A stretch of DNA of 24,783 nucleotides from a virus. This document shows, in pieces, positions 2,307 through 19,528 of this stretch. The stretch lies in IMG/VR virus record IMGVR_UViG_3300044998_000333, positions 1-24,783 of that record. One strand, written 5' to 3'. Each line of letters begins with the position of its first letter. Position 1 is the first letter of the stretch. Below the pieces are notes generated by a model. That model was not told the origin of the DNA, did not search any database, and saw nothing but the letters and a program-made list of their open reading frames with translations. The position numbers and the translations under genes were made by a program.

Positions 2307-3236
2307 TTACTGCACCTGCTGCAGTGCGATGTAATCAGCCATCAGTTCCGCAGGCCCGTCGCCGTTCAGCACGCCCGCCGCATACGCCTCAAAGAACTCG
2401 AGCATGTTCACATTGCCCTTCGCCTGTGCCAGTGTGTGCAGCTCGTCAAAAAAGCGCTTGGCAAGCTTTGCTTCGTCATCGCTCAGCGTTTTGCGGCTCT
2501 CGATTTGGCGCTTAAAAAAAGTGCTCAGCACCGCCAGCGCCAGATCGCGCTGTTTCTCGTTGAGCCCGCAGTCATCCATACTGCGAGCCAGCGCCACAAC
2601 CGCGCCGCTGGGCTTGGTTTTGTCGGGTTTAGTGCTGGTTTGCGGAGGCTGTTCTGGCTGAGGTGTGGCTTCTACTATCTCTACCTGTGCGTTTTGTGCA
2701 GGCTCGCCCGTTTTCTGCGATAAAATCTCGCCAGTCTCCGGATCAACCACCACAGGCCGAGCGCCTGGGATAGAGTCCACCTCAGACTCATCTGTCCAGC
2801 CCAGGCCCACAATCGAAAGCGTCACACGGCGCTTGGCTTTGGTCTCCGCTTTCATGATGGCATTTGCCGCCGCCTCGCCCTGCAAGCCCTTAATGCTCAC
2901 CGCGCCTACCGCCTCATCCTGCCTGCCATCCACATTCGAGGCTCGAGCCGTTACCACATACAACCCGAGCGACTCAATCAGCTCACGAGCCACAATGTGC
3001 ACGCTAATCCCGTGAATGCGACGAAGCTGATCCGTAGCGTCTTTTTTGGTATACAGCGTCAACCGGCCATTAAGCGTGATGTAGTCGAACGGCTTCGTCA
3101 GCGGGTTCAGGCCCAGCGACTCGCATACCTGCCGGTAGTACAGCACCCGCTCCGCCGGTGCCAGCTTGGACAAATCGCCCTGGATGACGACTTTTTCGAC
3201 GATTTCCGCATGATTACGTACCTGGATTTCGCTCAT
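2307..3236 (-). CDS. Putative single-strand annealing recombinase (RecT/Bet-like)
   Basis: 309 residues, start fixed by AGGAGGAATC before the ATG. The N-terminal 150 residues hold RecT/Bet-type features: an ERVLYYRQVCESLGLNPLTK segment near 28-47 (Bet proteins have a comparable 'GLNPF' loop), a LNGRLTLYTKKDATDQLRRI segment, and KAETKAKRRVTLSIVGLG near 127-145, followed by acidic DESEV. Such proteins coat and anneal complementary single strands during phage recombination and replication. A Pro/Gln/Thr-rich linker (residues 165-205) joins a helical C-terminal domain (210-309), which may bind partners such as host SSB. No exonuclease partner is visible in the window. The family assignment rests on motif resemblance; a different annealing superfamily is possible. 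Confidence 0.6.
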   Translation of the reverse strand: MSEIQVRNHAEIVEKVVIQGDLSKLAPAERVLYYRQVCESLGLNPLTKPFDYITLNGRLTLYTKKDATDQLRRIHGISVHIVARELIESLGLYVVTARASNVDGRQDEAVGAVSIKGLQGEAAANAIMKAETKAKRRVTLSIVGLGWTDESEVDSIPGARPVVVDPETGEILSQKTGEPAQNAQVEIVEATPQPEQPPQTSTKPDKTKPSGAVVALARSMDDCGLNEKQRDLALAVLSTFFKRQIESRKTLSDDEAKLAKRFFDELHTLAQAKGNVNMLEFFEAYAAGVLNGDGPAELMADYIALQQVQ

Positions 3237-4324: not shown

Positions 4325-4620
4325 GATTCCTCCTGCGGCCAGGCCAAATGCGGCCAGTAGACGATTACGTCTAGCCCAAGGTTGTCAACACGAGCACTAA
4401 TCAACAAATCCGATATAGCATCGCACGCATCAAGTGCATCCGTCTCAATATCTGCGATGCACGCCGACAGCGCCTCGATTGCATCCGCACAAGCCTTCAG
4501 GATTGTATCGTCTACAATCCCCACGCAGAGTTTGCCGTTCATCCCGCGCCCCGAATATGCACGCGCATTATCGTGGCCTGCCAGCGCTTTTGCTATAACT
4601 ATCCGCCTATCCATGTTCAT
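4321..4620 (-). CDS. Unknown early protein, 99 aa
   Basis: Two in-frame ATGs (4620 and 4614) follow an AGGAGGAA site; 4620 has the shorter spacing and is chosen, though 4614 is possible. It overlaps the end of the HTH gene by 14 nt. The centre is a long Ala/Asp-rich helical repeat-like stretch (LKACADAIEALSACIADIE, then DACDAISDLLISARV), and the C-terminus is a hydrophobic strand ending in acidic residues. There are four cysteines but no metal-binding spacing. No family recognised. Confidence 0.55.
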   Translation of the reverse strand: MNMDRRIVIAKALAGHDNARAYSGRGMNGKLCVGIVDDTILKACADAIEALSACIADIETDALDACDAISDLLISARVDNLGLDVIVYWPHLAWPQEES

Positions 4621-4804
4621 GTTTCCTCCTTGCCCGTGGAGCCTGCCCTTCCCGCGCCAGCCGCTCCACAAACTCACGCGGTATGCGCCAGCGCCCGGCC
4701 AGAAAAATCGCAGGAATCTCGCCGCGCTTAATCATATTGAGCACGCTCTGCCGCGAGATTCCCAGCATTTTCGCTGCCTGATTTGTATTTATGCGCTGTT
4801 GCAT
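4607..4804 (-). CDS. Excisionase/MerR-type helix-turn-helix protein (HTH_17-like)
   Basis: From the ATG at 4804 the product has 65 residues. It holds the full HTH_17/excisionase pattern: INTNQAAKMLGISRQSVLNM (helix-turn-helix) followed by the wing KRGEIPAIFLAGRWRIPREF and a basic tail RARRKHEHG. Longer in-frame starts at 4825 and 4879 exist. None of the three has a clear ribosome site, so the start is uncertain, and a leaderless or weakly translated form is possible. As first gene of the leftward operon, next to the divergent promoter, it is a good candidate for an early regulator. It could also be an excisionase, but no integrase is in the window. Confidence 0.75.
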   Translation of the reverse strand: MQQRINTNQAAKMLGISRQSVLNMIKRGEIPAIFLAGRWRIPREFVERLAREGQAPRARRKHEHG

Positions 4805-4833
4805 AAGTACAGTCTGAGAGCGCATTAGTGCTT

Positions 4834-4856
4834 TGTCAATATGTACAGTGTTGACA
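4834..4856. promoter_or_regulatory. Inverted repeat TGTCAA/TTGACA in the divergent control region
   Basis: TGTCAA (4834-4839) and TTGACA (4851-4856) form a perfect 6-bp dyad with 11 bp between. The right arm is the -35 box of the rightward promoter. A GTACAGT direct repeat also occurs at 4807-4813 and 4843-4849. The site could be an operator for the adjacent HTH protein, or two opposed -35 boxes. The leftward direction lacks a convincing -10 at standard spacing. Confidence 0.4.
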
Positions 4857-4879
4857 GATGAGCTAATGTGTGCTAACAT
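4851..4879 (+). promoter_or_regulatory. Sigma70-type promoter of the rightward operon
   Basis: A perfect -35 TTGACA (4851-4856), a 17-bp spacer and -10 TAACAT (4874-4879, four of six consensus bases) are followed 40 bp later by the first ORF. The predicted transcript start is near 4886. It overlaps the dyad that may be an operator. Confidence 0.7.
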
Positions 4880-6712: not shown

Positions 6713-7045
6713 TCAGGCCACCTCGATGATGAGCAAGTCGTAGCCGATGCTTGGTGCTACCGTAGGCTCGCCGCCCTGCGTCATTACAAACACAGCGCGA
6801 TAGTACCCGACTGGCAGCGCATTGGGTCCGCTCCAGTCGCTGGCCTGAAAGTCATATACCAGGAATATGCGATCTGTTGGTGATGCGTCAATCTGCATCG
6901 TGCGTTCGTGCACCTGGCCGTTTGTTTTGTTCGTCAGTCGCATCGTTGCCGCTGTGGGCACGGGGTTTGGTTTTGCCCCCGCGAACTGCACCGGCACGGT
7001 TAGTGGCAGCCGTTGCTCGCCCTGTTTGATTCTGAAAACGCTCAT
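6713..7045 (-). CDS. Baseplate/tail-fibre accessory protein, BppU N-terminal-like
   Basis: 110 residues, start overlapping the upstream stop as TAATG. The pattern (FRIKQGEQRLPLTVPVQF, AATMRLTNKTNGQVHER, VYDFQASDWSG, LPVGYYRAVFVMTQGGEPTV, PSIGYDLLIIEV) is an all-beta, immunoglobulin-like domain. It resembles the N-terminal domain of baseplate upper proteins and small tail decoration proteins, in which an 'LPVGxYRAxF' strand is typical. Its position right after the repeat-containing fibre gene supports a role in attaching receptor-binding proteins to the tail tip. Family link is by pattern only. Confidence 0.55.
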   Translation of the reverse strand: MSVFRIKQGEQRLPLTVPVQFAGAKPNPVPTAATMRLTNKTNGQVHERTMQIDASPTDRIFLVYDFQASDWSGPNALPVGYYRAVFVMTQGGEPTVAPSIGYDLLIIEVA

Positions 7046-9033
7046 TATCCCTCCGGTTCCTCGTCTGTGTGCCAGGCCGCTGTGTCTTCCCCTGTGTTCC
7101 AGTCTGAAATGCGCTCTGCGGTGTGGTAGCCGCGCCCTGCCGCGCCCGTGCCCCAGTTACCGACGATTGTAGCGCTTGTGATTGCGCCATATGCCGTTAC
7201 GCCAATCACCGCACGTCCAGCGACAGGCACAACCGTAATCGAGCTACCGCGCCCCAGCGCCGATGCAACCGCTTGGCCGCTTGCCGGTACAACCCGTACA
7301 ACCGCCGCTCTGCCCGTCGCGTTGGCTACCGCCTGCCCCTGCACCAGAGCAATGCGAGTCGCCGTGCTGTGTGCTGTCAGCGACGCCACCGCACGCCCTG
7401 ACGCCAACTGCAATACCTGCGCGCCCGCTACTCGAGCGGTTGCGCCTACCACCGCGCTGCCGCCCACAGGCACAAGTCGTACCGTTGCTCCACGCCCCAG
7501 CGCCGTTGCATAGCTGCGTCCGCCCACCGTGACGACAGCCCCACTTTCGAGCAGCCCATACGCTGTCACGCTCGCAATCGAGCGCCCCTGCGTAATCACG
7601 ATGCGTATCCCTGTGCCGTGTGCTAGAGCCTGGCTCACGCTGTAGCCAGCAACCGGCACAATGCGTTGCGCCTGACTGCGTGCCAGCGTGCTGCTCACGC
7701 TAAGGCCCCGTGCTGGTACAACCCGTACCACATTCGCGCGAGCCAGCGCTTCCGCGCCAGAGCGCCCAGCAACCGGCACGATGCGCACACCGCTACCCCG
7801 AGCCAGTGTGCTGCTCACACTGCGCCCTGCGGTTGGTTGTATCGTCTGCGTCGTACTGCGCCCCAGAGCATTGCTCACGCTGCGCCCAGCACTCACTGTG
7901 ATCTGCTGTGTTGCTGCTCGTGCCAGCACCTGTGCGATAGCGCGAGCTGCCACAGGCACGATGCGGATACTGTTACCACGAGTGAGCACGTTGACAACTG
8001 ATCGGCCCTGCACCGGCGCAATACGCACAGGTACAGAGGTCGCAGTGGTCGAGACTACCGTGCGCCCTCCCGTCGGCGCAATCCGCACCGGCACCCCCCG
8101 CGCAAGCGCAGATACCACGCTACGCCCAGAGGTTGTCACCACGCCCGCACTGGCAACGTCAACGCTGAACCAGTCTATGCTGCCGTTTGTGCCCGTCCAG
8201 AGGTTGACACCAACAAACCTGTTGGTGTTGTACGTGGTGGAGGTATGGGTAAGGATAGACGTTCCGTTGATGAAAGCCTCAATGTTAGTCCCGTCATCCC
8301 TCAGTTCCACCAGGTAGTTGGCTCCGTTGGAGCGTGTAAACGAACCGTTAGCAACCTCGGTTGCAGAGCCGCCAGTAATGCGGTGCAGCGCTACATAGTT
8401 GTTGTTGTACCACTCCAGCGAAAACAGGTTGTTGTAGCTAGCGGCTTCGTTGCGAAAAAATATGGTGATTGCCTCGCTGACAGAAGGCCCTTCGCGGAAC
8501 CGCAGTCGTACCCTGGCGGGCTGACCGGCTGCGGTCAGGTCTACATATGTAGCGTTGTACGTGCCGTTGTTTTTGTAGAATCCCCGCACCGCACGGGTGT
8601 ACTCCGATGGGTTGCCCGCCCACGACCGGCCAAACTGCGTGTTGTCCTGGTTGAGCGTTCGCCCTGGGAAGCGCCAACCTGCATCGGCTTCCACCTGTTG
8701 ATAGCCGCTGCTGTTGGCTGGCGTGCGTTGCAGGCTCGCCGTTGGCGTCGCGCCGGTAGCCCGCACCCGCACAAAATACGCAGTGCCGTTTACCAGACCG
8801 CCTAGCTCATAGCTGGTGACGTTGCCAATGTTGAACCAGTTTGTTGGGTTGTCGCTTGTGCCAACAGCAACCTCGTAGCTGGTTGCACCGGCAACTGCGT
8901 CCCACGACAGGTTGATAAGCGCGTCGCCTGCCGTAGCCTGGAAGTTCGCAGGGGCCGCCTGTACCGGCCAGCCCGCCGCTCTGGGGAGCCTGGTAGCGAT
9001 GGGCTGGAACGCAATCGGCCCCCCGCCCAGCAT
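7045..9033 (-). CDS. Tail fibre/adhesin protein with FN3, LamG-like domain and 16 tandem repeats
   Basis: 662 residues; GGAG lies upstream of the ATG at 9033. Residues about 26-100 are a fibronectin type III domain (PANFQATAGDALINLSWDAV, SYEVAVGTS, YFVRVRATGA). Residues about 110-295 look like a concanavalin/laminin-G jelly roll (VRLRFREGPS, LVELRDDGTNIEAFINGTSI, GSIDWFSVDV). Residues 303-624 are sixteen 20-residue repeats, consensus GRSVxxxLARGxxVRIVPVA. The C-terminus (residues 625-662) repeats W-x-T motifs: NWGTG, YHT, DWNTG, WHT. This layout suits an elongated structural protein that carries a binding domain on the virion surface. It sits among other decoration genes. The receptor is unknown. 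Confidence 0.75.
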   Translation of the reverse strand: MLGGGPIAFQPIATRLPRAAGWPVQAAPANFQATAGDALINLSWDAVAGATSYEVAVGTSDNPTNWFNIGNVTSYELGGLVNGTAYFVRVRATGATPTASLQRTPANSSGYQQVEADAGWRFPGRTLNQDNTQFGRSWAGNPSEYTRAVRGFYKNNGTYNATYVDLTAAGQPARVRLRFREGPSVSEAITIFFRNEAASYNNLFSLEWYNNNYVALHRITGGSATEVANGSFTRSNGANYLVELRDDGTNIEAFINGTSILTHTSTTYNTNRFVGVNLWTGTNGSIDWFSVDVASAGVVTTSGRSVVSALARGVPVRIAPTGGRTVVSTTATSVPVRIAPVQGRSVVNVLTRGNSIRIVPVAARAIAQVLARAATQQITVSAGRSVSNALGRSTTQTIQPTAGRSVSSTLARGSGVRIVPVAGRSGAEALARANVVRVVPARGLSVSSTLARSQAQRIVPVAGYSVSQALAHGTGIRIVITQGRSIASVTAYGLLESGAVVTVGGRSYATALGRGATVRLVPVGGSAVVGATARVAGAQVLQLASGRAVASLTAHSTATRIALVQGQAVANATGRAAVVRVVPASGQAVASALGRGSSITVVPVAGRAVIGVTAYGAITSATIVGNWGTGAAGRGYHTAERISDWNTGEDTAAWHTDEEPEG
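7162..8127 (-). repeat. Sixteen tandem 60-bp coding repeats (20-aa unit)
   Basis: Units begin at residues 303, 323, 343, 363, 383, 403, 423, 443, 463, 483, 505, 525, 546, 566, 586 and 606 of the fibre protein. Periodicity is exactly 20 residues except for +2 after unit 10 and +1 after unit 12. Conserved positions are G1, S/A3, V4, L/T9, A10, R11, then a V-R-I-V-P strand. Each unit looks like two short beta strands, which suggests a beta-solenoid or stalk. Repeat similarity at DNA level could allow unit gain or loss by recombination. Confidence 0.85.
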
Positions 9034-9035
9034 AC

Positions 9036-9992
9036 CTAGCTCCTAGCCAATGGCCTGAGGTACTGGCTGTAATAGTCAATGTCGAGGTTGCGTGCGGTAG
9101 TTGTGGTGTTGATGATTTGAAATCCCGCCTGGCACACCGTGGTAGGCAGGTTGGCAGTCAACGTGCCCAGCAGCGCGCCGTTCGAGAAAAACGCCACACC
9201 CGAGCCGTAGTGCACAATCGCTAGTCTGTACCAGGTGTTAGCCGCAACCGCTTGTGTGCTGTTGCTAGGTGTGCCGACGCTCGCTTGCCGTGTCGCAAAG
9301 CGCCAGTTGGCTGATGCCGCAGCATCAAACTCGATCCACGCACCTGCCGTGCCGAGCGTAGTAGAGCCCCAGTCCTGCCCCAGCCCGAACCGGAACGCCA
9401 TAGATGTGTTTTCGAGCAGCCGGATTACAGCAGTCATCACGGCCAGATTCGCAGGCACAATCAACCCGCCTGCCGTTGCTGAAGAACCACGGTGCAGACG
9501 AGCAATGCTGTTGGCAGTGGTGCTGGTGGTAATGCGGAAAATCCCAGGGTGGCCGTCTGTTCCAGCCTGGAACGCATACGTACCCGCTGTGGAAGCAGTC
9601 ACGCCCCAGGCCAGCCGGGAGATGTTGCCAGTAGTAGCCAGCGCCGCCGAGATAAAGTCGTCGCCTTCCCAGTCCAGCCAGGAGCGAGTATCAATCAAAT
9701 GCAGATGCTTTGTGCCCGCCCCCCAGTTGACTGCGTTGTTGCTGTTGCTGGAGCGCAGCACAGCCAGCCGTACAAACGTCGAGGCCGCCGACAGGTATCC
9801 GATGCCAATCTCGAAATCGCCGCCGGTGTACAGGCCGTTGGCATCTACTGCACGTATGGCATAGCCCACCGGCCAGCCAACCCCTACCGCTGCGTTGAAG
9901 GTGCGCGTGGTAGGAAGCGCACTGCCCAGGGTTAAATCGCCCGTCCCTGTGGTGGTGGTGGTTTCAGCGACGCTTGGCTCGAGGATGAACAC
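9036..9992 (-). CDS. Tail fibre/receptor-binding protein with lectin-like C-terminal domain
   Basis: 318 residues from a GTG at 9992 (preceded by GGGG), one base after the upstream stop. Residues 1-105 match a widespread phage tail-protein domain: ETTTTTGTGDLTLG, a YAIRAVDANG strand, FEIGIGYLSAASTFVRLAVL, SSN.NAVNWGAGTKHLHL. Residues about 125-318 look like a concanavalin-type jelly roll (GAWIEFDAAASANWRFATRQ, NTWYRLAIVHYGSGVAFFSN, LLGTLTANLP, LDIDYYSQYL). The combination of a virion-attachment N-terminus and a lectin-like C-terminus fits a host-surface binding protein. Neighbours on both sides are similar beta-rich decoration proteins. Confidence 0.65.
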   Translation of the reverse strand: MFILEPSVAETTTTTGTGDLTLGSALPTTRTFNAAVGVGWPVGYAIRAVDANGLYTGGDFEIGIGYLSAASTFVRLAVLRSSNSNNAVNWGAGTKHLHLIDTRSWLDWEGDDFISAALATTGNISRLAWGVTASTAGTYAFQAGTDGHPGIFRITTSTTANSIARLHRGSSATAGGLIVPANLAVMTAVIRLLENTSMAFRFGLGQDWGSTTLGTAGAWIEFDAAASANWRFATRQASVGTPSNSTQAVAANTWYRLAIVHYGSGVAFFSNGALLGTLTANLPTTVCQAGFQIINTTTTARNLDIDYYSQYLRPLARS

Positions 9993-9993
9993 A

Positions 9994-10602
9994 TCAGAAC
10001 CCCGTGAATACCAGATCGCCCACCGGAATCCGCAAAATCTGCCCGCTGCTCATGTCCACGGCAGCAACACGGGTCACAAAGCCCGCGCCGGCAGCCGTCA
10101 CGTTCACCGCAGAGCCCCCCGGCGTAGCAGACACACGGAACTGGTTGGCAGTCAAGCCTGCGGAAATCACGTAATAGGGCGTGCCTTCAGTGATGCCGGT
10201 GGGCAACGCTTTGAGGTTGTACTCGCGCAGGAAGAACACCTCGTCGCCCGCCGCGAAACCGTGTCCAACACAGATAAAGTCGTCGTTCGTTGTATCAATC
10301 AACTGAAACGTCTGCGGCTGGGCGTTGCCCAGCACGCTGTAACCCAGAAAGTTACCTCCCGTCAGCGCATCGTACACCTTCCAGAACCGTGCTAGCCCAC
10401 TTGCATTCAGCGTGATCTCTACCTGCGCGCTGTTGCTCCTGCTCGAGCCCGACACCGCAGCCATCGCCACGCTTGTACGAGCAGCAGCCATGTTTGTGCC
10501 ACCCGCGCCATCCTCGCCCGGCCAACCATCCGCAGGCATCACGAACACGGGGTTCGGGAACAACCCCGCCATTTGTCCTTCCTGGTAATCACTCGCAAAC
10601 AT
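9994..10602 (-). CDS. Beta-rich tail/baseplate decoration protein, 202 aa
   Basis: The ATG at 10602 has GAGGTGATTG upstream; a second ATG at 10572 has AGGAAGG and would remove ten residues. Residues about 105-180 hold a domain seen in many phage tail and appendage proteins: DDFICVGHGFAAGDEVFF, LPTGITEGTPYYVI, NQFRVSATPGGSAVNVTAAG. The N-terminal 100 residues are Ala/Ser-rich and beta-like. It lies between a lipoprotein and a receptor-binding protein. Structural role likely, exact location on the virion unknown. Confidence 0.6.
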   Translation of the reverse strand: MFASDYQEGQMAGLFPNPVFVMPADGWPGEDGAGGTNMAAARTSVAMAAVSGSSRSNSAQVEITLNASGLARFWKVYDALTGGNFLGYSVLGNAQPQTFQLIDTTNDDFICVGHGFAAGDEVFFLREYNLKALPTGITEGTPYYVISAGLTANQFRVSATPGGSAVNVTAAGAGFVTRVAAVDMSSGQILRIPVGDLVFTGF

Positions 10603-15000: not shown

Positions 15001-15201
15001 GCGGTACAGCAGTGTAATCTCAGCCGTTGCTACCGGCTCGTCTTTGTTGCGACGTATGCGCCCGCGTATCGCCTGTGCCTGGTACGTCTGCCAGTTGCCG
15101 CTGTTGTCGCGAATGCGTACCCGATGCCGCGTGCGTATCCGGCCCGTCAGGTTGCTGCGATTCGTAAGCAGCGTGCTCTCGCTCGCGCCAATCGTCCTCA
15201 C
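12001..15201 (-). CDS. Large tail-tip/hub and fibre protein, 1066 aa
   Basis: GTG start with GGGAGGG seven bases upstream and a GTGA overlap with the tape measure stop. Residues 1-380 resemble a tail hub domain (IRGRIRRNKDEPVATAEITL, WHLRFDGIIQSLEPRGK, IVARDRFGLLMDRY, GEIIRRLALRIGWDISYRW). Residues about 403-500 and 503-590 are two FN3-like modules. Residues 600-705 carry tail-fibre repeats (HIADQAITVAKF, ADSITAGQIAAGAVSTSELA, ANAITVEKLA). Residues 706-845 look like a carbohydrate-binding jelly roll (NYLLDGGFEIGASGRWALAT), and the rest is a beta-rich tip. Such proteins close the tail tube and contact the host. No separate distal-tail gene lies between it and the tape measure. Confidence 0.8.
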   Translation of the reverse strand: MRTIGASESTLLTNRSNLTGRIRTRHRVRIRDNSGNWQTYQAQAIRGRIRRNKDEPVATAEITLLYRVGTNLSPFANAAKPIDLSRDIQIESAYLDAAGNPITWHLRFDGIIQSLEPRGKFEMDIVARDRFGLLMDRYTEQERTYGGGQRVDLVIQQILNDWITPAVTLFVPTLPGSGNTVADEKIKEAPVGEIIRRLALRIGWDISYRWDSGTSTYRLTLIDPARSNTTSTYTFTRNMFEALSDWGVDRTALRNKIEVAFGSGASRGSVVVSDSASITAHGTLYMRLGEDQGLRLQTSAQATTVANAVLSDLATPFITARYRVPYFPFAELNDVFTFAATNLEYDSNQVLAVVGIEEEWDANKDETDSWTVLTVRGKPVGGRSIWIDEGNIPTQPGPGTVTAPDAPTGLSGNFTSPDAVLVWNAVADAAEYEVVVRNTSGGAIRRTETVAASANPGYTYDLQKNAIDGTPNPSLTFEVRAIRSSAEGRVRSSAATVALVNSAPSAPASVTLVGEPLNFRASVPEPTFSDYLRTEWQADDNSGFTSPTNAASGPDWQGVRIGLESTTGTTWVRARFVDVFNQASGWTSASSAGVLVGAAHIADQAITVAKFASGIAAPQLYNSATLPTLPNSQYPQGTIIYNVHATNTGLWQNKNNSTWTRLVDGATDIVADSITAGQIAAGAVSTSELAANAITVEKLAVTARENYLLDGGFEIGASGRWALATGWAYSTSHPVHSGTGCLRATQDGTTTSNDIACKDGDPWFAEVWIGGDNSPNGSARVRITFLNASFGVISSVDGNNATNGGYNRSVAYALAPANTAYVRCDLVVTGRTTGAWLFDDAALRRANHGALTVDGTITAVKLNALELNAIQGTFGGGNNKSGLDNRGLRVYDSSAQTRVAVGDIGGLSWGSGTLAAGTYGFYAGGSGNVYLTDYPRLLHARMVSGGEFGVVLAGNESSVIIFATNAFAHTGSVASGRRLLGIATPMFLNVFGAGTGHPTDVFLAGWRVYVEVSQNGSTWTMVDVNDGPISWNWLRAYFTVAVKNVAGSQRTIDIPYRVVISLYDVP

Positions 15202-17762
15202 CTATCAGCCCTCCCGTATTGCCGCATCCGATACGATTGCACCTCTACCTCAGTGCGGTATGGATCGAGCGCGCCCGACACGTTCACCACAATTACTGGT
15301 TGCTGTGCGCCCGCTGTGCTCAGCGCCACGCCTGTAAACCCGTACCCGCTCACCAGATTCACGCTGTTGGAAAGCCGCTCCAGGCCTTTAGCCGCGCCTT
15401 CGCTGCCGTCCTGAATGCGGCGCAAGCTATCCTCGATGGCTTTATCGTCCACGAAAAGTCGCACCGCACCAAACGTGATTTTCTCGATAATCCAGGCGAG
15501 CGCGTTCCAGGCTTTAGCCACAATCAGCACGAACCCGCCCAGCATCAAAGCAGCCAGTTTCAGAATCGGTGCAAGCGCCTGGAATACCGGCGTAATCAAC
15601 CGCGCCAGAATACTGCCGAGCTCCACCATCGGGGCCATGAACTCCTGCACCGCAGGGCCGAGTACTTCCATTGCACCTGCTACCAGTGAAGCCACGGGGT
15701 TAAGCTGTTCGAGCAACTGGCTAAACGCCTGCAATGGCCCAAGCAGCCCAGGGATGATGTTTGCCAGCCCCGCAAACGGCCCCAGCATCGCTGCAATATC
15801 ATCCAGCCAGGTGCGCGGTGCGTTCTCAGGCCCCAGCTCGCCCACGATAGGCCCTGCCGTTGTGCCCTCTACCGTCACGTTGCTGAACGTCGCGTTTTCA
15901 AACTCGAACACGCGGTTGACTCCCAGTTCGCGTCCAACCGGTTGTAACGGTACGTCAAAAACGGGGCCAAGCATCGGCAGCGACACCGGCTGCTGTCCTG
16001 TGCCCGGCACACCCGTGATGAACGGAATCCCGCCGCCTCGAGATGGCGGTGTCAAATCGAGCCGTGCGCCTGTATCCAGCGGCACAGGTGTTTGCCCGAT
16101 GGGTTGCAGCACAGGCCCGCCAAACGTCAGCGGTTGCATCTGTAGTTGAGGCCCCCTGCCCGCAGGGATATCCAGCGCAGGCGCTCCAGGCATCCCGCCC
16201 AATGCGCCTTTTACTGCCGCGCTCGATTCCTGCCAGGCTCGAGCCCAGGATTCCGCTTTTTGAATCTGCGAGTACACAAACCTGTCCCATTCAGCATTTA
16301 CCGCTTCAAAATCAAGCCGCATCAGCTCGGCCTGGGTGTTCTGAGTAATTCTCTTCATCTCTGCCTGAATGCCCTCAGAGGTTTTCCCAAACCGCGCTAT
16401 CAGTTTAGATTCCTGCGCCTCGATGCGATCTAAAATGCCCTGCGTAAACCCATCCACCACCATAAAGCCCAGAAACATGAACTCACGAGACGGCGAGCTG
16501 ATTCGGAGCACCTTTTTAGCAGCGTCAATCACCGACTGCCCGAGCCTCTTAGCAGCATCTACCGCATCATTGACGCGCTCGGTAATGCCGCGTATAAGGC
16601 CCGCTACAGCGTTTCTCCCCGCCTCCAGAAATATAGGAGCAATATTCCCCACAGTTTGCTTTATAGCCTCAAACGTGCGGCTAAAAATGCCTTTTACAAG
16701 CTCAGCAACTTTCCCAAAATCCCCCTGAAACAAAGCCGTCAACGCCCGCAAAATATCCGCCACGTTGCCGAGCACCGCCTTGAGCAGCGGCGCAATTGCA
16801 TTCAACGCAGGTTTGAGCACGTTGTTCCACGCCGCGCTAATCGCCCCCCAAGCCGCTGTGACCAACTCACTCAGCAGCTTGATATAGGGCTGTGCGTCCT
16901 GCGCGAGCTTTTTGAATTGCTCGCTCTGCACCCAGGCCGTGATGTTGCGTACCACCGCAGTCACAGCTTCCTGGTATTTGATGAGGTATGGCAGCGTAAA
17001 CTGCCCAATAGCTAAACTCAGATTTTTCTGTGCTGCTGCCAAATCATTCGCCGAGCGAGCAGCGGGGTCGCTGGTAGCCCTGTAGGCTTTTAGCTCAATC
17101 TGCGACTCCCGCAGCACCGCGTTGATGTTGGCAGTGATTTTCTGCTCTTCAGTCAGCGCCTCAACTTTGGTTTTGGTGGCCTTGGCGAACTTCTGCTGCT
17201 CAGGGCCAAAATTGCTCGAGATGCCCGCGTATTCCACCAGCTCACTGCGGCTCATCGCAATACCGCGCGCCGCCTGCACCATTGCATCCCCAACATTAGC
17301 CCCCGCCGCCGATGCAGAAGCCGCGATAGCAGGCAATACCTCAGCTACCTGCTTCAAGCTAGCGCCCTGCTTAACAAGCACCTGGATAGCTTCTTGCGCC
17401 TGAGCAGGTACGACGCCAAACTCCTTTTGCAGCCTATTTACAATCGCAGTAGCAGCATTGGCATCAACTTTGAGCTCCTTCATGTAAAAGTTGAACAGCG
17501 CAGCGCTCCGCTGTGCCTCAGCAGCAGCCTGTGCTGTGCTAAAAAAAGCATTTTTGAGCTCATTTACCCCAACCGCCGCCCCAGCCGCAACAGCCAACCC
17601 GCCCAGGCCCTTGACTAGAGAATTCACCCCCCCGCTAAGCCGGGCCATCCCCCCCTGTAGTGCGTTGGTTTTTTTCTCGAGTCCGTCTACGCTGCCAGCG
17701 ATTTGTCGCAATACGCCGCTGGCCTGGTCTATGGCCCGGACGATTACCTCAGCGCTCGCCAT
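15198..17762 (-). CDS. Tail tape measure protein, 854 aa
   Basis: The ATG lies two bases after the stop of the frameshifted chaperone product. Long helical, Ala/Gln-rich sequence starting ASAEVIVRAIDQASGVLRQI, a typical tape-measure opening. Hydrophobic segments lie near residues 50-65 (GLGGLAVAAGAAVGV), 300-330, and about 640-760 (FAGLANIIPGLLGPL, LAALMLGGFVLIVAKAW). Residues about 417-443 hold the recurrent tape-measure motif VLRISSPSREFMFLGFMVVDG followed by FTQGI. The region 520-610 is Pro/Gly-rich. It sets tail length and exits at DNA injection. With the usual 0.15 nm per residue the tail would be roughly 125 nm (inference). Confidence 0.9.
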   Translation of the reverse strand: MASAEVIVRAIDQASGVLRQIAGSVDGLEKKTNALQGGMARLSGGVNSLVKGLGGLAVAAGAAVGVNELKNAFFSTAQAAAEAQRSAALFNFYMKELKVDANAATAIVNRLQKEFGVVPAQAQEAIQVLVKQGASLKQVAEVLPAIAASASAAGANVGDAMVQAARGIAMSRSELVEYAGISSNFGPEQQKFAKATKTKVEALTEEQKITANINAVLRESQIELKAYRATSDPAARSANDLAAAQKNLSLAIGQFTLPYLIKYQEAVTAVVRNITAWVQSEQFKKLAQDAQPYIKLLSELVTAAWGAISAAWNNVLKPALNAIAPLLKAVLGNVADILRALTALFQGDFGKVAELVKGIFSRTFEAIKQTVGNIAPIFLEAGRNAVAGLIRGITERVNDAVDAAKRLGQSVIDAAKKVLRISSPSREFMFLGFMVVDGFTQGILDRIEAQESKLIARFGKTSEGIQAEMKRITQNTQAELMRLDFEAVNAEWDRFVYSQIQKAESWARAWQESSAAVKGALGGMPGAPALDIPAGRGPQLQMQPLTFGGPVLQPIGQTPVPLDTGARLDLTPPSRGGGIPFITGVPGTGQQPVSLPMLGPVFDVPLQPVGRELGVNRVFEFENATFSNVTVEGTTAGPIVGELGPENAPRTWLDDIAAMLGPFAGLANIIPGLLGPLQAFSQLLEQLNPVASLVAGAMEVLGPAVQEFMAPMVELGSILARLITPVFQALAPILKLAALMLGGFVLIVAKAWNALAWIIEKITFGAVRLFVDDKAIEDSLRRIQDGSEGAAKGLERLSNSVNLVSGYGFTGVALSTAGAQQPVIVVNVSGALDPYRTEVEVQSYRMRQYGRADR

Positions 17763-17764
17763 CG

Positions 17765-18377
17765 TTATCGCCCTCGGTGTGCTCGTTCATGCTGCCGTGC
17801 CTCATCTGCGCTACCCTCAGCCAGCGCCATCAGGTTGAACGCATAGACGCCAATCGGATCAGACGCTATCTCCCACGGCGTCTTGCCGTACGCCTTCGCC
17901 AGATAGTGGCACTGAACCAGATGCTTCTTGAAATCGCTCCGCGTCCACCTGCACAGCGCTCACCCCCGACAGCTCATTGATGCGCTCCAGGATTTTAGGC
18001 CAGTCCTCAGGGTACAGCGCCTTGAAATCGCTAATCCACATGCCCCCAACAGCGTCTACCTCGGCTTCCGAGGCATCATCTGCCAGAATCGCCGGACTTT
18101 GAATGCCCACGCGCAGTACGTAGTCATCGCGCTCGCTGAGTTTGAGCAGCGTCTCCGCGCCGCCCTTCTGGTCGAGGATTTCCTGAACACGCTGAAGCCG
18201 CTCCTCCTCGCTGAGTTGTTGCATTTCAAGCACCACCGGCAGTACCCCAGGATTAGCGCCCGCCGCAGCCAGAATGAACTCGTTTTGTCGCACAGGACGC
18301 AGCAAAAACACTGTGCCATCCTGTGCGACATAGCGCCGCCGCTCTTTTGCCAGTTGTCGTTTTTCCTGGAAACTCAT
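17765..18377 (-). CDS. Tail assembly chaperone, frameshifted long form (GT-type)
   Basis: The short form ends at 17859, but the +1 frame stays open across and beyond its end, to a TAA at 17765-17767, two bases before the tape measure ATG. That frame reads KKHLVQCHYLAKAYGKTPWE, then IASDPIGVYAFNLMALAEGS and a charged tail. This is the conserved T-type segment of tail chaperones ('GKTPWEI..DPIGVYAFN'). It has no start codon or ribosome site of its own. A +1 shift at TTT-C (17930-17933) gives 149 shared residues plus 54 new ones (203 aa). As in lambda G/GT, the long form would bind the tail tube while the shared domain coats the tape measure. Coordinates span both frames. Confidence 0.8.
17859..18377 (-). 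CDS. Tail assembly chaperone, short form (G-type)
   Basis: 172 residues; AGGAG lies before the ATG, ten bases after the tail tube stop. The protein is helical and acidic: FLLRPVRQNEFILAAAGANPG near the N-terminus, LSEEERLQRVQEILDQKGG in the middle, and a GGMWISDFKALYPEDWPKIL segment near 111-130. Position between tail tube and tape measure is diagnostic for this gene pair. Its last 23 residues (QEASGSVPLS and on) overlap the T-type frame and look non-conserved, as expected for the terminating form. It chaperones the tape measure during tail assembly and is not in the virion. Confidence 0.85.
   Translation of the reverse strand: MSFQEKRQLAKERRRYVAQDGTVFLLRPVRQNEFILAAAGANPGVLPVVLEMQQLSEEERLQRVQEILDQKGGAETLLKLSERDDYVLRVGIQSPAILADDASEAEVDAVGGMWISDFKALYPEDWPKILERINELSGVSAVQVDAERFQEASGSVPLSGEGVRQDAVGDSV
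17928..17942 (-). promoter_or_regulatory. Probable +1 programmed frameshift site
   Basis: Minus-strand codons are GCG GAG CGA TTT CAA. SD-like GGAG lies three bases (CGA) before TTT, and the tRNA-Phe on TTT can re-pair perfectly with TTC one base ahead. The bacterial prfB site has the same order: SD-like element, 3-nt spacer, slip codon. An in-frame TGA in the +1 frame about 20 nt upstream bounds the shift to this region. No heptameric -1 slippery sequence fits the frame relation. The exact shift codon is inference. Confidence 0.6.
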
Positions 18378-18387
18378 GCCGCTCCTG

Positions 18388-19326
18388 CTACGCGTAGCTT
18401 GCCACAGAGTTGATGAGCGTAATCACGCTCTCGCTGGCTGCGGTGGTGTCGTATTCTGCAACGCCCTCAACAGTTTTGGTAGGGATGTCAAACCCGCCCA
18501 AATCCTGCTTAGGACGGCTAAACTTCAATCGAGGCAGGTTTACCGCCAAACGGTTGCTTGCGCTAATCTGCCATTCAAACGTCCAGTCCACCGCGTTCGG
18601 GTTGCCGTTGTTCCAATCAGTAAGCAGTTGCGTGTCCGTGCCGCTCACCGTCATGCTCACCGTCACCTCGTGCCGGCCCAGCGAGGATACGCCCAAATTG
18701 CTCGTGCCGTCCTGAAGATTCAGCGTGCTGATGTTGTTTTTGAACGCAACGCTGAGCGACTGGATCAGGTTGTACGCAGCCGCAATGCGCTTGTGCTGCG
18801 CGTGCCTGAAGGTGTAGCAGGGAACGGTGCTAGGGGTTACAGCCGTCGCCGCCGGTGCATCCACAAAGCTGCGAGCCATAAACTCCATGCTCGAGATTTT
18901 CACCCGCCCTTCTGCATCTGCCTCAAGCGTGAACGAGTCCAGCAAACAGCCGGTGTAGGCGTAGCGAGTCGCGCCTACCTCGACATGCACCGTGAATCCT
19001 GTCAACGCTTGCCCGACAGCGGCATCATCCGCTTGCCGCTTGAACACGTGCGTATAAGGCCCGCTGCCCGTCGTCACAGGCGCACCCGCGTATGCTTGCA
19101 GAATCCAGCCGAGATAATCCGCTCGCACGTCGGTATTGCTGATGCTCACGCGGATATTGCTCCGCCCGACATCCGCCGTCGGCATAATGCGCCCACCATA
19201 AGGGGTTTCGTCGCGGATAAACTCCTGCGAGAACCCGTCATTCACCGTGCCGGGGATGATTACCGCCGGGGCCACATACGTCCCGTAGGTAGTCTCCCGC
19301 GCCAGGCCGATAATGCGTTTACTCAT
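18388..19326 (-). CDS. Major tail tube protein, 312 aa
   Basis: Starts 8 nt inside the preceding gene. Opens with KRIIGLARETTYGTYVAPAV, the usual 'G.E.TYGT...P' start of siphovirus tail tube proteins, followed by strands IRVSISNTDVRADYLGWILQ, YTHVFKRQADD, FTVHVEVGATRYAYTGCLLD, SFTLEADAEGRVKISSMEFM. It is all beta with an alternating hydrophobic pattern and no signal peptide, and it sits directly upstream of the chaperone pair. It would polymerise as stacked hexameric rings around the tape measure. Residues 150-312 repeat the same strand pattern (LSVAFKNNISTLN, HEVTVSMTVSGTDTQL), which suggests two related barrel halves. Confidence 0.85.
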   Translation of the reverse strand: MSKRIIGLARETTYGTYVAPAVIIPGTVNDGFSQEFIRDETPYGGRIMPTADVGRSNIRVSISNTDVRADYLGWILQAYAGAPVTTGSGPYTHVFKRQADDAAVGQALTGFTVHVEVGATRYAYTGCLLDSFTLEADAEGRVKISSMEFMARSFVDAPAATAVTPSTVPCYTFRHAQHKRIAAAYNLIQSLSVAFKNNISTLNLQDGTSNLGVSSLGRHEVTVSMTVSGTDTQLLTDWNNGNPNAVDWTFEWQISASNRLAVNLPRLKFSRPKQDLGGFDIPTKTVEGVAEYDTTAASESVITLINSVASYA

Positions 19327-19528
19327 TGCTGCTCACCTCCACTGCCCGCAGTATACCCGCTGCCAGCAACCGCTCAGCATCGGCAGGGGTTACCTCGTTG
19401 GCTGCCTGCGGTTCATCAATCACAAACACGTCCTCGCCCGCTGCGAGGTTCACGATATAGCCGTGCTCGCCTGGCGTGTGTTTGTAGCAAGCGCCTGTTA
19501 CCGGCGCTGTCGTTTGCTTTTTTGCCAT
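19319..19528 (-). CDS. Small neck/tail protein, 69 aa, unknown
   Basis: ATG at 19528 overlapping the tail terminator stop (TGATG). A longer in-frame opening upstream is only the other-frame reading of the terminator gene. The product has a basic start (MAKKQTTAPVTGACYKHTPG), two strands (HGYIVNLAAGEDVFVIDEPQ) and an Ala/Leu-rich helix (TPADAERLLAAGILRAV). Small proteins here often assist tail tube joining. No family recognised. Confidence 0.6.
   Translation of the reverse strand: MAKKQTTAPVTGACYKHTPGEHGYIVNLAAGEDVFVIDEPQAANEVTPADAERLLAAGILRAVEVSSNE

Follow-up and report, generated by a model that had tools for sequence, protein, structure and literature searches.

The virus record analyzed here (a stretch of 24,783 bases, hereafter the window) contains, between its tail tube and tape measure genes, a pair of overlapping tail assembly chaperone frames, G and T, for which a programmed +1 frameshift signal of the UUU_C kind is well supported by the sequence. 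It is very probable that a +1 shift of the ribosome at this signal yields two tail assembly chaperones from one message. A UUU_C shift in tail chaperones has a precedent, having already been proposed for haloviruses of the HF1 group, and this phage adds a further case.

Gene order and reading frames of the G/T locus

The late genes of the window are located on the minus strand and comprise a possible portal (without a family match), the capsid (phrog_267, E 9e-49), neck, tail tube, G, T and tape measure. The features relevant to the shift are the following:

18388-19326, minus strand: tail tube protein, 312 aa (PF18906, E 1.7e-22)
18377-17859, minus strand: G-type tail assembly chaperone ORF, 172 aa, zero frame, between the tail tube and the tape measure
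17962-17960, minus strand: TGA bordering the T frame on its upstream side, which sets the limit of the shift interval
17959-17765, minus strand: open T-type chaperone frame, +1 relative to G, with the stop TAA at 17767-17765
17940-17937, minus strand: SD-like GGAG with a putative role, 3 nt upstream of TTT (spacer CGA, 17936-17934)
17933-17930, minus strand: proposed shift site TTT_C, present in 13 of 16 +1 pairs and the sole +1-slippery codon of the window overlap
18377-17931 joined to 17929-17768, minus strand: predicted G-T fusion, 203 aa, with C17930 skipped and TTTC read as F
15198-17762, minus strand: tape measure protein, 854 aa (phrog_58, E 4.3e-23)

The two overlapping frames between the tail tube and the tape measure reproduce the G/GT layout. 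G starts with the ATG at 18377, preceded by AGGAG, and terminates at the TGA at 17861-17859. The second frame lacks a usable start, with no ATG, GTG or TTG ahead of its core motif YGKTPWEI, and a frame change is needed to reach it; the tape-measure ATG (17762-17760) begins two bases past the T-frame TAA. Both the missing start and this two-base distance had been described in an earlier note on this DNA and are confirmed on the minus strand. The same note placed the upstream stop of the T frame at 17951-17953 and limited the shift to 17930-17950, which is wrong for the stop and too narrow for the shift: given the actual position of the TGA, the interval runs from 17959 as far as the T core, at approximately 17900.

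Pfam and PHROG searches returned no match for the T domain of the window. A profile of 11 other T segments, which adjoin tape-measure-like ORFs and were preselected by the core motif taken from the window, matches the window T frame with E 3.1e-7, the next frame scoring 0.98. Structure prediction for the fusion from the single sequence reached a mean pLDDT of 55.

Elsewhere in the window, 7045-9033 encodes a protein of 662 aa, probably a tail fibre or adhesin, that contains an fn3 domain and numerous imperfect repeats, each about 22 residues long (GRSV..ALAR..). The region 2-841 encodes a replication initiation O-like protein (phrog_9773, E 1.4e-46), and 2307-3236 shows a weak RecT-like match (E 0.004). 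The small HTH_17 protein encoded at 4607-4879 (E 1.5e-13) is possibly an excisionase or Cox-like regulator which, if this identity is right, would suggest a temperate phage.

A single slippery codon in the overlap

In the 32-codon overlap of the window, TTT_C is the only homopolymeric (XXX_N) zero-frame codon prone to +1 slippage, and an in-frame UUU followed by C is found within an overlap of the +1 relation. The site reads CGA_TTT_CAA; neither the slow CGN codon in the A site nor the UCC codon in the E site that make up the PA-X cassette is present, their places being taken by CAA and CGA, respectively. CAA is of middling frequency in the window (10.3 per 1000), not rare. A -1 heptamer of the lambda type does not apply to this locus, where T lies in the +1 frame. 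Folding of the downstream RNA, in a stretch that began one base off, revealed nothing unusual (z from -1.1 to +1.3).

Recurrence of TTT_C in +1 pairs

No close homologue of G, tape measure, tail tube or portal was found in IMG/VR, nor of G, T or tail tube in the phage collection, and a DNA search with window positions 17000-19500 yielded no close relative. Comparison of the tape measure with 789 phage records gave only partial matches below 60% identity, none covering 80%, and the closest capsid relative (L002, 50% identity) has no relative of G or T. Because close homologues of the window G and T are lacking, conservation cannot be read column by column. The sole T match in genome contigs (L006) was rejected, as it coincides with ordinary chromosomal genes in a Burkholderiales genome; the exact pattern GKTPWEI had 8 matches, none of them a T gene; and a T profile search of 299 genomes of one phylum, run without a positive control and hence uninformative, had no match.

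Viral contigs were scanned with a degenerate DNA pattern restricted to the T core, A..YG[KRNS]TP.E[hydrophobic], which identified 56 stretches. Among these, 11 distinct T-type frames are preceded by a G-type ORF, and in most cases a long tape-measure-like ORF lies directly downstream of the T frame; one locus, L104, is Haloarcula virus HHTV-1. Further pairs came from capsid relatives (chosen by eye for T-like sequence), from named phages and from tblastn with two newly found T sequences. Altogether, 16 G/T pairs in the +1 relation were collected, the window included. A zero-frame TTT_C is found within the overlap in 13 of these, including cultured Aeribacillus and Fusobacterium phages, D6E and two haloarchaeal viruses; the site thus recurs in the same overlap of unrelated phages:

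Window: CGA_TTT_CAA
HHTV-1: CAG_TTT_CCA
L123: AGG_TTT_CAA
L120: TCC_TTT_CTC
L141: TCC_TTT_CGT
L152: ACG_TTT_CCT
L157: ACC_TTT_CGC
L034: TCC_TTT_CTT
L043: ACG_TTT_CTT
Fusobacterium phage Funu2 (L018): ACA_TTT_CGT
Aeribacillus phage AP45: CGG_TTT_CTT
HSTV-2: TCC_TTT_CGC
Thermophilic phage D6E (G and T unannotated): ACC_TTT_CAA

Formal scoring covered 15 pairs, D6E having been looked at last and left out. One in-frame TTT_C was present in 12 of the 15, against 1.75 expected from the in-frame TTT_C frequency in the long ORFs of each locus (P 1.6e-14); the Paenibacillus phage Pd_22F locus, which has no usable background, was conservatively assigned a probability of 0.97. The pairs are not all independent, given that L034, L043 and AP45 represent one T lineage and the YGKTP core is common to seven pairs; six of the other sites came from the T-core pattern, of which the shift site is no part. 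Counted over 345 overlap codons, TTTC is found 12 times in the zero frame, twice in the T frame and never in the third frame, and other homopolymeric codons in the same overlaps display no such frame preference. The frames, the site and its recurrence support the proposal of the earlier note that two tail-chaperone frames are joined by a +1 shift at TTT-C, and the F149-K junction that it gave is correct in the predicted fusion.

The three exceptions are L050, with TTT_T instead of TTT_C; Pd_22F, with CCC_A only; and L125, with a 5-nt overlap and a GTG of its own. The T frame of Pd_22F (L160, 1162-1350), in the +1 relation and without TTT_C, is a relative of that of AP45; at the equivalent place it has TTT_TTG, where a +1 slip would meet TGA, so that CCC_A remains as the sole slippery codon of the overlap. 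T-type frames next to the tape measure, with TTT_C and the +1 relation, are unannotated or hypothetical in GenBank in AP45 (L016, 15149-15379), D6E (L021, approximately 9690-10130) and HHTV-1 (L158, 1496-2411).

Pairs in the -1 relation and pairs possibly without a shift

Among pairs in the -1 relation, in-frame TTT_C is present in 1 of about 26 (Fisher P 7e-7 versus the +1 pairs), a count that is approximate because the Yara and Wentworth rows are long ORFs in GC-rich DNA and weak -1 members; the automatic -1 rows for L120 and L152, being spurious alternative ORFs, were left out of the count. Several -1 pairs contain GGGAAAN or AAAAAAC. Phages whose T lies in the -1 frame do have -1 heptamers, a kind of site that the earlier note, if found in homologues, had taken as grounds for abandoning the +1 shift; three of these phages have the same T core as the window, but the frame arrangement is a different one.

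In L125 and L142, which have the same T core, T can begin at its own start overlapping the G stop (GTG and ATG, respectively), which suggests coupled initiation instead of a shift. On the minus strand of L115, a single frame of 205 codons (2542-3157 of the reverse complement) precedes a long ORF and matches the T core at position 142; it is possibly an in-frame G-T fusion made without frameshifting.

The GGAG motif and other explanations

The window site resembles that of prfB in the +1 slip on a U-rich codon and in the SD-like GGAG 3 nt upstream. The GGAG-CGA-TTT-C layout described in the earlier note is indeed present at 17940-17930 and has the prfB spacing, and a core SD 4-mer at exactly this spacing occurs at only 1.2% of the window codons. 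That pairing of the internal GGAG with 16S rRNA is, as in prfB, the main driver of the +1 slip at TTT_C is nevertheless unlikely. GGAG with the 3-nt spacer is confined to the window, being absent from the 11 other compared sites and from that of D6E, all of which have TTT_C. Furthermore, prfB employs CUU_UGA, with a stop codon in the A site, a conserved strong SD and autoregulation by RF2, whereas the A-site codon of the window is CAA. The best anti-SD pairing within 18 nt of the window site is unremarkable, with 21% of random sites as strong, and varies elsewhere. One of the 14 other in-frame TTT_C codons of the window genes (codon 84 of the gene at 9997-10602) has GGAGG close upstream, which shows that an ordinary gene can contain a comparable layout. 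GGAG at the 3-nt spacing alone could be due to chance; given the 1.2% background, a small local contribution is possible, and the motif may add a little stimulation without being a conserved part of the signal. The likeness to prfB probably reflects the chance occurrence of one short motif, or no more than a local embellishment of the signal.

Translation of T alone, through re-initiation or from a non-standard start, is very unlikely in the window, where the T frame before the core offers only a CTG (17956-17954), even though own starts occur in the same-core relatives L125 and L142 and the annotated start of HHTV-1 gp34 is an ATG downstream of the G stop. A sequencing or assembly indel that splits what in the real phage is one continuous gene is scarcely credible: the G/T sequence is known from a single virus record, but the interval of the frame break holds the very TTT_C that recurs in independent phages, including cultured ones that were sequenced separately, which speaks against the merging error considered in the earlier note. 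A -2 shift, as in phage Mu, would lead to the same frame as +1, and in the window, to which the reading of -2 candidates was confined, a few marginal single-tRNA re-pairings can be envisaged (GCT to GCG at the overlap edge, for example), but it is very unlikely because TTT_C, found in 13 of the 16 pairs, is suited to slippage by +1 and not by -2.

Proposed mechanism and known systems

From the sequence, we infer the occurrence of the +1 shift, its efficiency and the roles of its products as follows. Most ribosomes would translate G through to its own stop, producing the 172-aa protein. tRNA-Phe, with the anticodon GAA, reads UUC exactly and UUU by wobble, and accordingly a one-base forward slip improves pairing. 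In a minority of ribosomes, the peptidyl-tRNA-Phe on the P-site UUU would slip one base to UUC, turning the wobble pair into a G-C pair; AAG would be decoded next, and the T domain would be completed to give the 203-aa G-T protein. On the model of lambda, G would bind the tape measure, and G-T would recruit tail-tube subunits through its T domain.

Phage lambda G/GT involves the same genes in the same position, with the same presumed role of both products, but relies on a -1 shift (Xu et al. 2004, as cited in PMC5009743). The closest match to the window site is the UUU_C shift of influenza PA-X, of plant amalgaviruses and, as proposed, of HF1-group haloviruses. In bacteria, UUU_Ynn has been described as particularly liable to +1 shifting, also where no stop codon is involved, and some tailed phages, like influenza A virus, have been described as shifting with no obvious stimulatory signal (PMC5009743); the observations on stimulators made here fit this description. 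The influenza +1 site, UCC_UUU_CGU, has been demonstrated by mass spectrometry (PMC3498833), and UUU_CGN has been proposed as the +1 site of plant amalgaviruses (PMC5052127). In these viruses, too, the P-site tRNA-Phe slips from UUU to UUC without a strong stimulator, and the PA-X site TCC_TTT_CGT is identical at locus L141, but the ribosomes are eukaryotic, the genes are different and CGA_UUU_CAA of the window contains neither UCC nor CGN.

For the HF1-group halovirus tail chaperones, TTT-CGC has been proposed (PMC7230728, from which the site is taken here), and the shift in the HSTV-2 (KC117376) tail chaperone, the site of which was checked in this analysis, has been reported as very likely +1. 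These viruses share with the window the location of G/T between the tail tube and the tape measure, the +1 relation and TTT_C, there as TTT_CGC. They are archaeal viruses with CGC as the A-site codon, and the likeness established here concerns layout and site.

Implications for tail assembly chaperones

The occurrence of the same UUU_C site in bacterial phages of several lineages, and in the present phage, which lacks close relatives, is new with respect to the open-access papers searched. A predictor paper of 2024 states that a general motif for forward frameshifts has yet to be identified, and it uses loose 'three' and 'four' repeats (PMC10885494). It appears reasonably likely that UUU_C serves the tail assembly chaperones of bacterial and archaeal tailed viruses as the general +1 site, the equivalent for +1 shifts of what the heptamer is for -1 shifts, and that it operates without a fixed stimulator and has arisen repeatedly in unrelated T lineages. 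Should it be the usual +1 site, the T halves that are now missing or hypothetical in many genomes, as in AP45, D6E and HHTV-1, could be found and annotated.
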